Part shown: in pieces, positions 41,627-49,052 of the stretch
Position numbering within the stretch: position 1 is the stretch's first letter
Layout of the letters: every line of letters starts with the position of its first letter
Assembly: GCF_026968045.1 (NCBI RefSeq)
Contig: NZ_JAPVBQ010000002.1
Coordinates: 298,933 to 362,932 of the forward strand
DNA: 64,000 nt
Source of the DNA: Modestobacter sp. VKM Ac-2977
Lineage (GTDB): Bacteria; Actinomycetota; Actinomycetes; Mycobacteriales; Geodermatophilaceae
Direction of reading: 5' to 3'
Notes under the pieces: generated by a model
The model's database searches: none
What the model was told of the DNA's origin: nothing
What the model saw: the letters and a program-made list of their open reading frames with translations, nothing else
Position numbers and translations under genes: made by a program

Positions 41627-41665
41627 CCCCGACCGGTTCGGGGCGCGCACCGCGGCGATGGCAGC

Positions 41666-42382
41666 ATGGGCCGCGTGTCGCCGCGTCTGCTGCTGGTCGA
41701 GGACGACGACCACATCCGCATGCCCCTGCGCTGGGCCCTCGAGGACGAGGGCTACGAGGTCGCCGAGGCGGCCAGCGGCGAGGATGCCTGCCGGCAGGTG
41801 GCGATCGCCGCGCCCGACCTGATGATCGTCGACCTGATGCTCGGCGCCATGGACGGTTACGCCGTCATCCGCGAGGTCCGCCGCGCCAACGACCTGCCGA
41901 TCGTGGTGGTCAGCGCCCGGGCCGACACGCACGACATCGTCGCCGCGCTCGAGGCCGGCGCCGACGACTACGTGACCAAGCCGTTCCAGGTCAAGGAGAT
42001 CACCGCCCGGCTGCGCGCTCTGCGTCGCCGGATCGGCGCCAGCTCGGGTGCGGACGAGCGACCGCAGGAACTGGTGCTCGACGGTGACCCGGCGGCACCG
42101 CTGGTCCTCCGGCCGGACCGCGGCACGGTGCACCGCGGCACCGAGCAGCTGCACCTGACCCTGACCGAGTTCCGGCTGCTGTGCGAGCTCGCCGCCTCCC
42201 CCGGCCGGGTGCTCAGCCGGCAGGCGCTGCTGGAGCGGGTGTGGGAGCACGGGTTCTTCGGCGACGAGCGGCTGGTGGACGTGCACGTGCGCCGGCTCCG
42301 GACGAAGGTGGAGCGGGACCCGGGCGCACCGACGCTCGTGGTGACCGTGCGGGGCCTGGGCTACCGGCTGGACCCGCAGTGA
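41666..42382 (+). CDS. OmpR/PhoB-family response regulator
   Basis: A 238-residue regulator. The receiver domain has LLLVEDDDHIRMPLRWALED, phospho-acceptor Asp56 in MIVDLMLGAMDG and Lys105 in DDYVTKPFQVKE. The C-terminal winged helix has LTLTEFRLLCELAASPGRVL and DVHVRRLRTKVERDPGAPTL. It begins the operon with its kinase and a GerMN lipoprotein, like a compact mtrA. The ATG at 41666 is used; an in-frame GTG at 41675 is possible. The stop overlaps the kinase start (GTGA). The 20-bp shared element precedes it. Confidence 0.9.
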   Translation: MGRVSPRLLLVEDDDHIRMPLRWALEDEGYEVAEAASGEDACRQVAIAAPDLMIVDLMLGAMDGYAVIREVRRANDLPIVVVSARADTHDIVAALEAGADDYVTKPFQVKEITARLRALRRRIGASSGADERPQELVLDGDPAAPLVLRPDRGTVHRGTEQLHLTLTEFRLLCELAASPGRVLSRQALLERVWEHGFFGDERLVDVHVRRLRTKVERDPGAPTLVVTVRGLGYRLDPQ

Positions 42383-43752
42383 GGCTGGCGCTCGCGCCGA
42401 GACGGCTGCGGGCGCGGATCGTGCTCGCCTTCGCCGTCGGCGCGCTGCTGGTCTCCGCCGTCCTGGTGACCACCACCTTCGCGCTCGCCCGCAGCTACCT
42501 GCTGGACCAGCGGGAGAGCGCCGCCACCCGGCAGGCGTTCGCCGACGCCAACGTGCTGGCCAGCCGGCTCTCCACGGCGGGCAGCGAGGTCGGTGACGAG
42601 CTCGACGACCTCGTCCCCTCCGGTGGCGCTGACGTCGTGGTGCGCAGCGGCGGCGCCTGGTACTCCTCACGGCTGGACGTCGGCGCCCGCGACGTCCCGG
42701 GTCCGTTGCAGGAGCTGGTGGCCTCGGGGACGGCCAGCACCACCCGGGTCAGCAGCCCGACCGGACCGCACCTGGTGATCGGCATCCCGATCGCCGCGGC
42801 GGGTATCGAGTTCTACGAGGTCGCCCCGCTGGTCGAGCTGCAGACCGCGCTGCGCACGCTGGCCGCGGTCCTGGGCGCCGGCGCGGCGACCGCCACCGCG
42901 GCCGGGGCGCTGTTCGGGGCCTGGGCGAGCCGGCGCGTCGTCCAGCCGCTGGAGCAGGTCGCCGGGGCGGCGACCCGGATCGCCGGGGGTGAGCTGGACA
43001 TCCGGCTACCGCCCACGGAGGACCCCGATCTGCTGGCCATCGTCGCGAGCTTCAACAGCATGGTCGATGCGCTGGCCTCCCGGATCGAGCGGGACACCCG
43101 GTTCGTCGGCGACGTCAGCCACGAGCTGCGCAGTCCGCTGACCAGCCTGGTCACCAGCGTCGAGGTGCTGGGTGCGCGCCGCGAGGAGCTCTCCCCACGC
43201 GGCCAGCAGGCGCTGACGCTCATCCAGGGGGAGCTCGGCCGGTTCCGCCGGATGCTGGACGACCTGCTGGAGCTGGCCCGGGTGGACGGGGACCCGGTGA
43301 CGGCGCTGGACGAGCCCGTCTCGCTGTCCGCGCTCGTCCGCGAGGTCCTGGCGCACCGCGGCGGGCCGGAGGTCGTGCTCTCCGCCGACCCGGACGAGGA
43401 GACGGTCGTGCAGGGTGACAAGAACCGGCTGGAACGGGCGGTGACCAACCTGCTGGACAACGCCGACCGGCACGCCGGCGGGGCGGCGGCGGTGCTGGTG
43501 GAGCGTCGGGAGGGCTCGGTGGTCGTGATGGTCGACGACGCCGGCCCCGGTGTGCCCCTCGTCGAGCGGGAGCGGGTGTTCGAGCGGTTCGCCCGGGGCC
43601 CGCGGGCGGCCCGGGGCTCGCTGCCCGGCGCCGGTCTGGGGCTGGCGATCGTGGAGGAGACCGCGACCGGGCACGGCGGCGGCGCCTGGTGCTCCGAGAG
43701 CCCGTTCGGCGGCGCGCGCTTCACCCTCTCCCTCCCCGGCGCAGCGCAGTGA
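42379..43752 (+). CDS. Membrane sensor histidine kinase (MtrB-like)
   Basis: A 457-residue kinase with two membrane helices (about 12-38 and 152-180) flanking a roughly 110-residue extracytoplasmic sensor region. A HAMP segment (about 182-235) follows, then the H-box VSHELRSPLTSLV with His248, and a HATPase domain with LERAVTNLLDNADRHAGGAA, VDDAGPGVP and GAGLGLAIVEETATGHGG. It phosphorylates the upstream regulator. Start and stop overlap both neighbours by four bases, so the three genes are translationally coupled. The layout is that of MtrB with a smaller sensor domain. Confidence 0.9.
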   Translation: MRLALAPRRLRARIVLAFAVGALLVSAVLVTTTFALARSYLLDQRESAATRQAFADANVLASRLSTAGSEVGDELDDLVPSGGADVVVRSGGAWYSSRLDVGARDVPGPLQELVASGTASTTRVSSPTGPHLVIGIPIAAAGIEFYEVAPLVELQTALRTLAAVLGAGAATATAAGALFGAWASRRVVQPLEQVAGAATRIAGGELDIRLPPTEDPDLLAIVASFNSMVDALASRIERDTRFVGDVSHELRSPLTSLVTSVEVLGARREELSPRGQQALTLIQGELGRFRRMLDDLLELARVDGDPVTALDEPVSLSALVREVLAHRGGPEVVLSADPDEETVVQGDKNRLERAVTNLLDNADRHAGGAAAVLVERREGSVVVMVDDAGPGVPLVERERVFERFARGPRAARGSLPGAGLGLAIVEETATGHGGGAWCSESPFGGARFTLSLPGAAQ

Positions 43753-44384
43753 GCCGGGTCCGCACCCTGCATCGGTCCGGCCCGCTGCGCTGGCCCGGCG
43801 CGCTGCTGCTGGCCGGCACGCTGGCGGCCTGCGGCGTCCCGACCGGCGGCGCGCCCGAGCCGATCCCCACCTCGCAGGTGCCCTACGACCTCGGCTCCCC
43901 CAGCCCGACGGCCACCGGCGCCCCCTCTGCGTCCGCGCGGATCGACGAGCCGCGCGTCTACCTCGTGGCCGAGGACGGTGCCCTGGTCCCGCGCGGCCGG
44001 TCGCTCAGCTCCGGGGCGCTGTCGGAACGGCTCGACCAGCTGCTCGACGACCTGGCGACCGGTCCGACGACCCGTGAGCTGACCGACCGGCTGTCCACCG
44101 CGCTGCGGCCGGAGACGTCGCTGTCGGTGGACGAGCTGTCAGACGGGACGGTGACGATCGAGCTGGGTGGGGACGCCGAGGCGCCGGCCGGGCAGGAGAG
44201 CCGCCGGGCGGTGGCCCAGATCGTGCTGACGGCGACCAGCCTGCCGGAGGTCGAGGAGGTCCTGCTCACCCGGGCCGGGCAGCCGGTCGAGGCCCCCCTT
44301 CCCTCGGGTGAGCTGACCTCCCGCCCCCTCTCAGCCACCGACTACCAGCCCCTGCTCACCCCGACGGCCTCACCCACCACCTGA
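43749..44384 (+). CDS. GerMN-domain lipoprotein (LpqB-like)
   Basis: A 211-residue secreted lipoprotein. The signal segment ends in LAGTLAACGVPTGG with the lipobox Cys at about residue 27, followed by a Pro/Ser/Thr linker. A GerMN domain (about 70-190) follows, with RVYLVAEDGALVPRGRSL, LLDDLATGPTTRELTDRLST and VAQIVLTATSLPEVEEVLLT. GerMN domains are shared by GerM and LpqB. LpqB, the partner of MtrAB, is larger and has a beta-propeller that is missing here. It probably modulates the coupled kinase at the outside face of the membrane. Confidence 0.85.
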   Translation: MSRVRTLHRSGPLRWPGALLLAGTLAACGVPTGGAPEPIPTSQVPYDLGSPSPTATGAPSASARIDEPRVYLVAEDGALVPRGRSLSSGALSERLDQLLDDLATGPTTRELTDRLSTALRPETSLSVDELSDGTVTIELGGDAEAPAGQESRRAVAQIVLTATSLPEVEEVLLTRAGQPVEAPLPSGELTSRPLSATDYQPLLTPTASPTT

Positions 44385-46759: not shown

Positions 46760-47032
46760 ATGCACCTGCTGCTGGAGTACACGCTGGCCGAGGACTACCT
46801 GGAGCGCCGGGCGGCCCTGCGGGACGACCATCTCGGCCTGGCCCGGGCTGCCCACGAGCGGGGTGAGCTGCTGCTCGCCGGCGCGCTGCCGGACCCCTTC
46901 GACCGGGCGCTGCTGGTGTGGACCGCACCCCGCGAGGTCGTCGAGCGGTTCGTCGAGGCCGACCCCTACGTCGTGCACGGCCTGGTGACCGGGTGGACCA
47001 TCCGGCCCTGGAACGTGGTCATCGGCGGCTGA
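46760..47032 (+). CDS. YciI-like protein
   Basis: A 90-residue ferredoxin-like-fold protein: MHLLLEYTLAEDYLERRAAL, RDDHLGLARAAHERGELLLA, then FVEADPYVVHGLVTGWTIRP. The conserved His of the family lies in RDDHLGLA, and DPYVVHGL matches the DPY motif. YciI proteins are small dimeric enzymes or accessory proteins of unclear reaction. It stands alone between a zinc dehydrogenase and the phytase-like gene. Confidence 0.8.
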   Translation: MHLLLEYTLAEDYLERRAALRDDHLGLARAAHERGELLLAGALPDPFDRALLVWTAPREVVERFVEADPYVVHGLVTGWTIRPWNVVIGG

Positions 47033-47052
47033 GCCGCACCGCGACCTGGCGC

Positions 47053-47085
47053 GTTCACGGGCTCATCACGGGACGGTCACAGGGA
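47053..47085 (+). promoter_or_regulatory. PHO-box-like array of three 11-bp repeats
   Basis: Three consecutive 11-bp units (47053-47063, 47064-47074, 47075-47085) read GTTCACGGGCT, CATCACGGGAC and GGTCACAGGGA, with TCAC at the same place in each. Actinobacterial PhoP boxes are tandem 11-bp repeats starting GTTCACC. The array ends 73 bp before a phytase-like secreted protein, so phosphate control is plausible. Confidence 0.55.
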
Positions 47086-47158
47086 CGCCGGGCCCCGTCC
47101 GTCTCACCCCGGCACGGTCAGCGGGCCCCACCCCCGCCGCCCGATCCAGGGAGACCCC

Positions 47159-48397
47159 GTGCGCCGTCCATCCCGCCGTGCCGCTCTGACCCTCACCACC
47201 GCCGGCCTGCTCGCCGCCGTCGCCGTCCCGGCTCTCGCCGGCCCCGCCCCCACCGTGCCCCAGGGCAACGGCACGCAGCAGGCCGAGCTGGTCGGCCGCT
47301 CGGTCCTGCCGTCGGCCACCTTCGGGGAGCAGGTCCCCTCCGGCGCGCTGGCCAACCCCGCCAACGGCGTCACCCCGCCGTTCGCCGCCCAGCCGATCCA
47401 GGGCTTCTCCGGCCTGCTCCGGGACGGCGCGGACTGGCTGGTTCTGGAGGACAACGGCTACGGCACCAAGGCCAACAGCGGCGACTTCCTGCTCCGCGTC
47501 ATCCGCGTGCACATCGACACCACCACCCAGCAGACGACGGTGCTCGAGGGCGGGTTCAGCCTCTCCGACCCCGACCGCAAGCTGCCCTTCCCGCTGACCC
47601 GCAGCGACCGCCGGCTCACCGGCGCCGACCTCGACCCCGAGTCGTTCCAGCGGATGCCCGACGGCACCTTCTGGATCGGTGAGGAGTTCGGCCCCAGCCT
47701 GGTGCACGTCGATGCGCAGGGCCGGGTGCTCTCGGCACCGGTCCAGCCCGACGGCGTCCGTGCCCCCGAGGCATGGGACCTGGGCGGCGCGGCCCCGACG
47801 CTGGGCGGCAGCAAGGGCTTCGAGGGCATGGCCCTCGGGGTCGACGGCCACACGCTCTACCCGATGCTCGAGGGCGCCGTCGCCGGCGACGACCCGGCCA
47901 CCCGCCGCATGTACAGCTTCGACACCCGGCGCGGCACGTACACCGGTCTGAAGGCCAAGGTGCGGTTCGAGGTCCCGGGCGACGCCCTCGGCGACATGGT
48001 CGCGCTGGACCAGAACCGCTTCCTCATCCTGGAGCGGGACAACGCGCAGGGCCCGGCCTCGCAGCTCAAGGCCGTCTACCTGATCGACACCCGGGACATC
48101 GACCGGGACGGCTACGCCGACAAGCGGCTGCTGGTGAACCTGATGGCCATGCCCGACCCGCAGGGCGTGGCCGGCCCGAAGGGCACCTTCGCCACCTTCC
48201 CGTTCGTCACCATCGAGCAGATCGCCGTGCTCGACGACCACCACATCATCGTCGGCAACGACAACAACTACCCGGGCTCGGCCGGGCGCACCGCCGGCGT
48301 GCCCGACGACAACGAGCACGTCGTCATCCAGGTGGACGAGGACCTGCAGGTCGACCCGGCCCTGGCGTCGATCACCGCCCGCGGCAGCCGCCGCTGA
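47159..48397 (+). CDS. Secreted esterase-like phytase family protein
   Basis: A 412-residue exported protein. A Sec/Tat-like signal (RRPSRRAALTLTTAGLLAAV, cleaved near ALAGPA) precedes a phytase-esterase-like beta-propeller. Family features are GFSGLLRDGADWLVLEDNGY, DPESFQRMPDGTFWIGEEFG, SKGFEGMALGVDGHTLYPML, DALGDMVALDQNRFLILERD and a late GNDNNYPGS. Such proteins act on phosphate esters outside the cell or are bound to its surface. The RR-containing signal may use Tat. The start is the GTG at 47159. A PHO-box-like array upstream supports a phosphate-scavenging role. The gene ends at a strong hairpin. Confidence 0.85.
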   Translation: MRRPSRRAALTLTTAGLLAAVAVPALAGPAPTVPQGNGTQQAELVGRSVLPSATFGEQVPSGALANPANGVTPPFAAQPIQGFSGLLRDGADWLVLEDNGYGTKANSGDFLLRVIRVHIDTTTQQTTVLEGGFSLSDPDRKLPFPLTRSDRRLTGADLDPESFQRMPDGTFWIGEEFGPSLVHVDAQGRVLSAPVQPDGVRAPEAWDLGGAAPTLGGSKGFEGMALGVDGHTLYPMLEGAVAGDDPATRRMYSFDTRRGTYTGLKAKVRFEVPGDALGDMVALDQNRFLILERDNAQGPASQLKAVYLIDTRDIDRDGYADKRLLVNLMAMPDPQGVAGPKGTFATFPFVTIEQIAVLDDHHIIVGNDNNYPGSAGRTAGVPDDNEHVVIQVDEDLQVDPALASITARGSRR

Positions 48398-48403
48398 CCA
48401 CCC

Positions 48404-48437
48404 GCCGTCCGGTCCCGCTCCCCCGGGACCGGACGGC
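48404..48437. terminator. Strong bidirectional terminator hairpin
   Basis: A perfect 14-bp stem (48404-48417 with 48424-48437) and the loop CTCCCC lie between the phytase-like gene and the end of the leftward nine-gene run. It should end both transcripts. Confidence 0.8.
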
Positions 48438-48449
48438 AGGAGGACCTGC

Positions 48450-49052
48450 TCAAGGCACCTGCACCGTCGTCGTCACCCGCACCACCGACGGCCGCGGGGG
48501 CACCGAACCGAACCCGAAGGTGACCGGCGGCCGCACCGGCGACACCGCGCCCAGCGGCTCGCCGTCCCACGTCGCGTCGACCGCGGCCAGGGTGTGCAGG
48601 TCCTGCACGCCGTACCACTCGGTGCGCCCGTTGCCGGCCGACCCCGTGGTGCGCAGCCCGGTCAACAGCCGCGCCGGCCGGTCGAGCAGCCCGACCCAGC
48701 CGGGCCGCCGGGCCAGCGGCGCGGGCACCGCACGCAGCAGCCGGCCCAGCCCGGGCCGGCGGCCGACCCGGACCGACATCGCCAGCGGGCCGGCGTGCAC
48801 CGTCCAGGCCGCGCCGTGGTGGGTCACCACCACGTCCACCAGCCGCACCTCGTCGAAGGCGTAGGTCGACCCGACGAACTCGGCGACCTGTCCGCTCGGC
48901 GCGAGCAGCACCCGGTGCCCATCGGGCCGCTGCACCATGACGTCGGAGAACGCCCCCAGCGGCGAGGACGGCCAGTGCCCGAGCACGATCCGGGTGCCCG
49001 AGGTGGTGCCGGTCCCGAGGATCCAGCCGTCGAACCGCAGCCGCGTCGTCAC
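48450..49052 (-). CDS. Conserved hypothetical protein
   Basis: A 200-residue soluble protein starting VTTRLRFDGWILGTGTTSGT, with RIVLGHWPSSPLGAFSDVMV, LLAPSGQVAEFVGSTYAFDE, then AWTVHAGPLAMSVRVGRRPG and a beta-rich C terminus TFGFGSVPPRPSVVRVTTTV. I recognise no catalytic motif and cannot name a family. It is the last gene of the leftward hexarate/mqo/glcD run, 29 bp after the glcD-like stop, and ends at a strong terminator. The GTG at 49052 is chosen by length and by the gap to the upstream gene. Confidence 0.65.
   Translation of the reverse strand: MTTRLRFDGWILGTGTTSGTRIVLGHWPSSPLGAFSDVMVQRPDGHRVLLAPSGQVAEFVGSTYAFDEVRLVDVVVTHHGAAWTVHAGPLAMSVRVGRRPGLGRLLRAVPAPLARRPGWVGLLDRPARLLTGLRTTGSAGNGRTEWYGVQDLHTLAAVDATWDGEPLGAVSPVRPPVTFGFGSVPPRPSVVRVTTTVQVP

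Follow-up and report, generated by a model that had tools for sequence, protein, structure and literature searches.

PHO boxes upstream of phosphate-scavenging genes are well known (PMC4415409), and several are described in the parts of the literature covered here. In Streptomyces coelicolor, the pstS PHO box reads gttcacccggc gttcatttacg (PMC3004843) and PhoP has been reported to bind it, while the PhoP operators of glpQ1 and glpQ2 comprise four or five units, some of them poorly conserved (PMC7866108). In Actinosynnema pretiosum, PhoP sites GTTCACGC lie in flaD, and mutation of the motif severely cut PhoP binding (PMC9019756).

For the PF13449 family, the evidence on function in the literature covered is indirect. 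In a Nodularia study, the genes induced by P limitation include one for a protein named after an 'esterase-like activity of phytase' (5.53 and 3.82) and another whose product has a 'phytase domain' (4.63 and 5.45), values that we take as log2 fold changes, and the same study reports that no conserved P-box was found (PMC9846622). A study on three Pseudomonas strains gives no evidence for PhoBR regulation of phytases (PMC5082522). PhoX and Psip1 are described as propeller phosphatases needing iron and calcium, and psip1 as phosphate-regulated (PMC11098088). Among the best-ranked titles of the literature, none dealt with an actinobacterial PF13449 gene under the control of PhoP.

The triple repeat and its conservation in Modestobacter

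We analyzed a window of 64,000 nucleotides (64 kb, the whole stretch of DNA) from Modestobacter sp. VKM Ac-2977, for which an earlier note had proposed three TCAC motifs at exact 11-bp spacing, a first unit close to the actinobacterial PhoP repeat, and a secreted esterase-like phytase encoded downstream. The region is organized as follows.

47053 to 47063, + strand: repeat unit 1 (GTTCACG-GGCT), the nearest of the three to the actinobacterial PhoP unit
47064 to 47074, + strand: repeat unit 2 (CATCACG-GGAC), TCAC in 10 of 11 Modestobacter orthologues
47075 to 47085, + strand: repeat unit 3 (GGTCACA-GGGA), TCA in 9 of 11 Modestobacter orthologues
47086 to 47107, + strand: two more 11-bp steps, CGCCGGGCCCC and GTCCGTCTCAC, matching, in an ungapped alignment, the degenerate and GTCCAYC steps of the pstS promoter
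47113 to 47118, + strand: putative -10 hexamer CACGGT, 5 nt past the last 11-bp step, in a conserved block
47159 to 48397, + strand: gene for a PF13449 ('Phytase-like') protein of 412 aa with a GTG start (E 9.9e-51, residues 78-371, full profile)
48404 to 48437, no strand assigned: hairpin with a 14-bp stem and no T-run (-37.9 kcal/mol, z -5.25), between the convergent PF13449 and 48450-49052 genes

Both claims on the repeat itself were borne out. Positions 47053-47085 read GTTCACGGGCT / CATCACGGGAC / GGTCACAGGGA, with TCAC at 47055, 47066, and 47077 in 11-bp steps, and this was the sole match to TCAC-N7-TCAC-N7-TCAC on both strands of the window (shuffle mean, 0.01). Unit 1, GTTCACG, differs from GTTCACC by one base, and a triple opening with GTTCAC likewise had a single match in the window at up to one mismatch versus 0.04 expected. 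Furthermore, a PhoP-unit model trained without phytase sequences ranked the site top of 127,944 window positions, with scores of 10.9 for unit 1 and of 1.3 and 4.4 for units 2 and 3. In the whole genome, TCAC triples numbered 3 exact matches (this site included) and 15 in total at up to one mismatch, versus 0 for the reversed-pattern control; the triple is therefore non-random, yet not exclusive to the PF13449 gene. The putative -10 hexamer lacks the usual first T, and scanning 46900-48600 for sigma-70 promoters gave no hit.

Orthologues of the PF13449 gene were present in 11 of 23 Modestobacter genomes and in 13 of 112 genomes of the family. Their distribution is patchy and the neighboring genes vary between genomes, suggesting repeated loss or transfer; by manual reading of the alignment, the genes upstream also differ. 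GTTCACG of unit 1 was invariant in all 11 Modestobacter orthologues, which are mutually related, so that these and the following counts are non-independent events. All three TCACs were intact in 8 of them, and one unit was altered in two more, namely unit 3 in L005 (TCAT) and in L007 (CCAC). In the most distant orthologue, L012, unit 1 alone was intact, and unit 3 carried GCAC. The base preceding TCA in unit 2 was C in 8 orthologues, A in 2, and G in 1, and the hexamer read CACGGT in 10 of the 11 and CAGCGT in L012. Unit 1 took the form GTTCACGCGGC in L003 and L004, and the same form occurs as a pstS unit in L139 and L144. The site holds at least two direct repeat units of 11 bp, as a PHO box should, and these are conserved in the orthologues; the resemblance to GTTCACC is evident for unit 1 in every one of the 11 orthologues, and weak for units 2 and 3.

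Pairwise identity among 10 orthologues was 0.79 for the repeat units, 0.72 and 0.79 for the two steps that follow, 0.89 in the -10 block, 0.75 in the leader past the -10, and 0.47 directly upstream of the repeat. Because the leader is fairly conserved too, conservation by itself fails to single out the repeat units. Judged by its sequence, the triple repeat forms a conserved element of the promoter.

The PF13449 protein

The proposal of a secreted esterase-like phytase stood only in part. The protein belongs to PF13449, with 173.7 bits against the Pfam gathering cut-off of 27.6 (E 9.9e-51), and is the sole PF13449 match in the genome at E<=0.001. Its N terminus was read manually as a typical signal peptide with a twin arginine, and the protein is probably secreted. 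The word 'phytase', on the other hand, is the Pfam family title only and is unproven for this protein, whose predicted propeller fold is common to lactonases and DFPase. We could not assign it to the Bacillus-type beta-propeller phytases, since PF13449 was its sole Pfam match at E<=0.001. A PDB sequence search gave no match at E<=1.

An AlphaFold2 model built from 28 sequences (pLDDT 83.1, pTM 0.84) was recognized as a beta-propeller by fold match. The best solved fold among the matches listed was YjiK (3qqz; Z 18.7, rmsd 2.9, 227 aligned). Near Z 15 were galactanases, a propeller lactonase, and DFPase. PhoX and Bacillus phytase were absent among the 50 matches listed in each fold search, which is no evidence of their absence. 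The acidic residues that are invariant in the 28 sequences include D98, D137, D157, D159, E161, E176, E222, E238, E292, D294, E353, and D368, a set that would suit a metal site. We consider the protein a likely phosphoesterase. The hairpin past its gene is a possible transcription end for both convergent genes; the terminator scan did not list it.

Shared architecture with the pstS promoter

We compared the region with the Modestobacter pstS promoters, whose units are similar to those of the PHO box before pstS in S. coelicolor. From 29 pstS matches, 27 loci were read, and GTTCA-N6-GTTCA was found in 21 of the 23 primary copies; L147, L154, and four second pstS copies were without the pair. 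In 11-bp steps, the pstS promoter reads weak / GTTCAYN / GTTCAYC / degenerate / GTCCAYC, followed by 5 nt and a hexamer that is mostly TAGCGT. The phytase promoter reads GTTCACG / NNTCACR / GGTCACR / degenerate / GTCCGTC or GGCTGCC and similar, followed by 5 nt and CACGGT. The repeat block aligns without gaps to the promoter of pstS, the standard PhoP target, and in this respect is placed as in an established Pho promoter of its own organism.

A 68-bp matrix was derived from 19 of the 21 paired pstS sequences, L151 and L153 being omitted for their atypical -10. With this matrix, the repeat register was the best offset in 9 of the 11 phytase promoters. The downstream half alone placed it 1st of 270 offsets in 6 of the 11 and 5th to 7th in 3, the remaining two, L005 and L006, being weak (ranks 21 and 24 of 270). 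Four other positions of the reference pool, which includes the window itself and consists of loci partly picked by TCAC patterns, scored above the window site, and the pstS matrix is thus supportive, not decisive.

In the same genome, GTTCAY pairs numbered 21 at up to one mismatch and 2 when exact (one of them at pstS), versus 2 in the control; by manual reading, about half of the matches lie inside predicted reading frames. The PhoD-family genes L183 and L184 had no PHO pair upstream, and a single GTTCACG precedes L183.

Orthologues in other actinobacterial genera

The cross-genus set comprised 31 orthologues, 29 from actinobacterial non-Modestobacter loci (out of 79) and 2 from the family search. 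A full NNTCAY-N5 unit separated by exactly 5 nt from TANNNT occurred upstream of 20 of the 31, versus 0 to 3 at 11 other spacings, a count for which no matrix was used; the other 11 orthologues were without the 5-nt arrangement. Since the members of the set are related, 20 of 31 denotes strong conservation and not 20 independent origins. PhoP-unit triples reached p<=0.05 in 12 of the 31 versus 1.6 expected, and p<=0.01 in 4 (median, 0.07).

Scored tests were performed on 27 regions, 4 of the 31 being excluded because they had no usable hexamer. Two units followed by 5 nt and TANN[GC]T reached a score of at least 3 in 11 of the 27, whereas none of the 27 did so at any of 14 other spacings. Similarly, a single scored unit at 5 nt passed in 9 of 27 regions versus 1 of 1,064 random stretches from the same loci, while at other spacings 0 or 1 passed with TANN[GC]T and up to 3 with TANNNT.

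The proximal units of these genera carried TCAT in 13 of 20 cases, compared to 10 of 38 pstS units and 0 of 24 units from the M23 peptidase promoters described below. The base before TCA was G in 14 of 20 and T in 6, and the base after TCA[CT] was C in 10 and A in 4. The PhoP model scored higher than a model derived from the M23 promoters at 11 of the 20 proximal units (means, 4.40 versus 2.49), a modest edge. In Kineococcus L048, tandem 11-bp units GGGCACCGAGC / GAGCACCGAGC / AGGCACCCAGC / GTTCACCCGGG lie upstream of the orthologue. Both here and in Kineococcus L049, the tandem units end in GTTCACC and TAGCGT lies one base further, a 6-nt variant that is outside the 20.

We regard it as an even question whether the PF13449 protein belongs, unrecognized so far, to the core of the Pho regulon throughout Actinobacteria, with a TCA[CT] PhoP unit at a strict 5 nt from the -10. 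The range proposed for this core regulon covers Modestobacter, Streptomyces, Nonomuraea and its relatives, Phytohabitans, Spirilliplanes, and, with the 6-nt variant, Kineococcus. If true, PhoP would fill the -35 position in a fixed contact geometry, and a main phosphate-scavenging enzyme would be a secreted propeller that is widespread but has no solved structure.

Candidate regulators

The genome encodes several regulators of interest. phoU is divergent from phoR-phoP, so the cognate system of a PHO box is present; the nearest solved relative of this PhoP (L122) is RegX3 (2oqr, 370.7 bits), and GTTCACC occurs twice in the phoU-phoR intergenic region, at a distance of two steps and on the strand of phoU. 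L123 and L126 are regulators nearest to Mycobacterium tuberculosis PhoP (344 and 280 bits), L124 is MtrA (379.7 bits versus the NF040689 cut-off of 300), and L121, which adjoins pst, was called GlnR-like from its degenerate receiver domain and location.

At about 41650-44384 of the window, the genes for a response regulator (L125), a HAMP histidine kinase, and a Germane-domain (PF10646) protein that is lipoprotein-like are consecutive. We take this layout to be like that of MtrAB-LpqB, the NF040689-level MtrA (L124) being located elsewhere.

TCAC triples with at most one mismatch also precede genes for an M23 peptidase, a BCCT transporter, a succinate dehydrogenase subunit, a Peripla_BP_2 binding protein, and an AMP-binding enzyme, and this looks like a separate MtrA-like regulon. 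The footprint before the M23 peptidase gene (L185) has the consensus ATCACGAACCGATCACGGCGTGTTTACATGGGC and lies 67 bp before the start in the same genome. It was read in 12 Modestobacter genomes out of 23 with matches; unit 1 is ATCTC in three of these, with other bases variable. We consider it a candidate MtrA operator.

Control of the PF13449 gene by MtrA, through RTCAC-like units at 11-bp steps and together with cell-envelope and osmotic genes, would be independent of phosphate, and we find it doubtful. The regulator is encoded in the genome, and two of the gene types preceded by TCAC triples at up to one mismatch, M23 peptidases and BCCT transporters, are targeted by MtrA in corynebacteria. 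The TCAC repeat of the M23 promoter is conserved in all 12 Modestobacter genomes read, and MtrA stays a rival, the strongest one, because the unit model derived from it fits the PF13449 site well. This model scored the site 23.9 versus 16.6 for the PhoP model, on scales that differ, and with either model the site ranked first in the window. The unit sum was nominally higher with the MtrA-like model in 7 of the 11 Modestobacter orthologues, again on differing scales. However, the M23 site is only a putative MtrA site, and the mtrA promoter region, read for 11-bp repeats, had none, a result that is neutral for MtrA control. The individual units argue both ways. The Corynebacterium glutamicum consensus (A/G)TAACAAT has a purine before TNAC (PMC3353115), and of the three units only unit 3 fits (A/G)TNAC at 11-bp steps, TCAC being preceded by T in all 11 copies of unit 1 and by C in 8 of the 11 copies of unit 2. 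The S. coelicolor MtrA consensus permits a T at the start of the first half-site (PMC5650626), which slightly weakens the case for PhoP and strengthens that for MtrA. In the Streptomyces venezuelae MtrA motif, by contrast, T1 and C4 are conserved and needed (PMC13189361); we interpret C4 as the C of TNAC, and this C is replaced in the TCAT of 13 of the 20 proximal units from other genera and in none of the 24 M23 units. With the pstS matrix, four M23 promoters reached -42 to -58 at best versus -21 to -53 for the phytase promoters, ranges that overlap.

A regulator of the M. tuberculosis PhoP or C. glutamicum PhoR type (L123 or L126), acting on TCACAG(C/G) direct repeats with or without a phosphate signal, seems to us quite unlikely. 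Two such regulators exist in the genome, and most Modestobacter orthologues have TCAC[AG]G in units 2 and 3, in agreement with a TCACAGC direct repeat with a 4-bp spacer as the M. tuberculosis PhoP motif (PMC4832192) and with CCTGTGAAaatCCTGTGAA as the best C. glutamicum PhoR site (PMC3353115). In the other genera, on the contrary, the base following TCA[CT] in the proximal unit is mostly not the A of this motif (C in 10 of 20, A in 4). Neither the L123 nor the L126 gene has a TYAY pair at 11 bp within 500 bp upstream, which we regard as neutral in the overall weighing. That the repeat serves as a conserved part of the promoter with no PhoP-family regulator bound, or as a GlnR site under nitrogen control, is very unlikely. 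GlnR sites are also 11-bp repeats, with half-sites that require GTNAC and GNAAC, and the GlnR-like gene L121 adjoins pst; however, the PF13449 promoter site has no GNAAC unit, and an exact 11-bp triple with an invariant unit 1 is unexpected for a plain promoter.

Probable PhoP control of the PF13449 gene

The conserved repeat, its pstS register, the cross-genus 5-nt register, and the presence of phoU / phoR-phoP together make a PHO box with PhoP control of the PF13449 gene the best explanation of the triple repeat, and, on sequence grounds, we consider it probable. The idea of a PHO box, already raised in the earlier note, is upheld by unit 1 in 11 of 11 orthologues, by the pstS register, by the phoU / phoR-phoP locus, and by 20 of 31 cross-genus orthologues. 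It is qualified by units 2 and 3, which stray from GTTCAC and are fitted by the MtrA-like and TCACAGC motifs, the MtrA-like model fitting at least equally well within the species, and by the base before TCA in other genera, mostly G, unlike the T of GTTCA. The Nodularia proteins induced by P limitation are independent evidence in its favor; the Pseudomonas result, the lack of a P-box in Nodularia, the two PhoD-family genes without a PHO pair, the missing first T of the hexamer, and the 11 of 31 orthologues without the 5-nt arrangement weigh against it.

In the scheme that we infer, which covers PhoP binding, activation at low phosphate, the -10, secretion, and the enzyme substrate, phosphorylated PhoP (RegX3-type, from the phoU / phoR-phoP locus) would bind head to tail, with one subunit per 11-bp unit. 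It would sit upstream of the -35 element, partly replacing it, and at low phosphate would recruit RNA polymerase to the putative -10 (47113-47118). The result would be more of the secreted PF13449 beta-propeller protein, probably a phosphomonoesterase or phosphodiesterase freeing phosphate from organic esters. The fixed 5-nt register offers a hypothesis for contact between PhoP and RNA polymerase without a -35 element.

Comparison with known systems

The PF13449 promoter is a good new example of an established type of control, with a register shared across genera. In several actinobacterial families, orthologues follow a conserved PHO-box-like promoter, which suggests that the PF13449 protein scavenges phosphate. 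Modestobacter deserti is reported to dissolve phytin and to have a RAST phyC call (PMC8602919), which may or may not stand for the PF13449 gene; given this phytin dissolution, a PF13449-type enzyme may be of importance where phosphorus is released in desert soil crusts.

The Nodularia spumigena protein has the same family name and responds to the same stimulus as the one inferred here, but it is cyanobacterial, a putative member of the family, and has no conserved P-box reported. PhoX and Psip1 share the predicted propeller, but the matches listed by the fold search show YjiK, lactonases, and DFPase instead. The flaD sites of A. pretiosum have similar GTTCACG units; however, the target gene is a different one and does not serve phosphate scavenging. 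The PhoP operators of S. coelicolor are alike in their 11-bp direct repeats, 7-nt conserved part, GTTCAC core (here in unit 1), and position before a gene. Unlike in the S. coelicolor PHO box, unit 1 alone is a near-perfect GTTCACC here, units 2 and 3 being CATCACG and GGTCACA. The Modestobacter pstS promoter has the same 11-bp phase across five steps and the same 5-nt gap to the -10 hexamer, but its strong units are steps 2 and 3 and its -10 is mostly TAGCGT, whereas the phytase promoter has its strong unit at step 1 and CACGGT as its -10.
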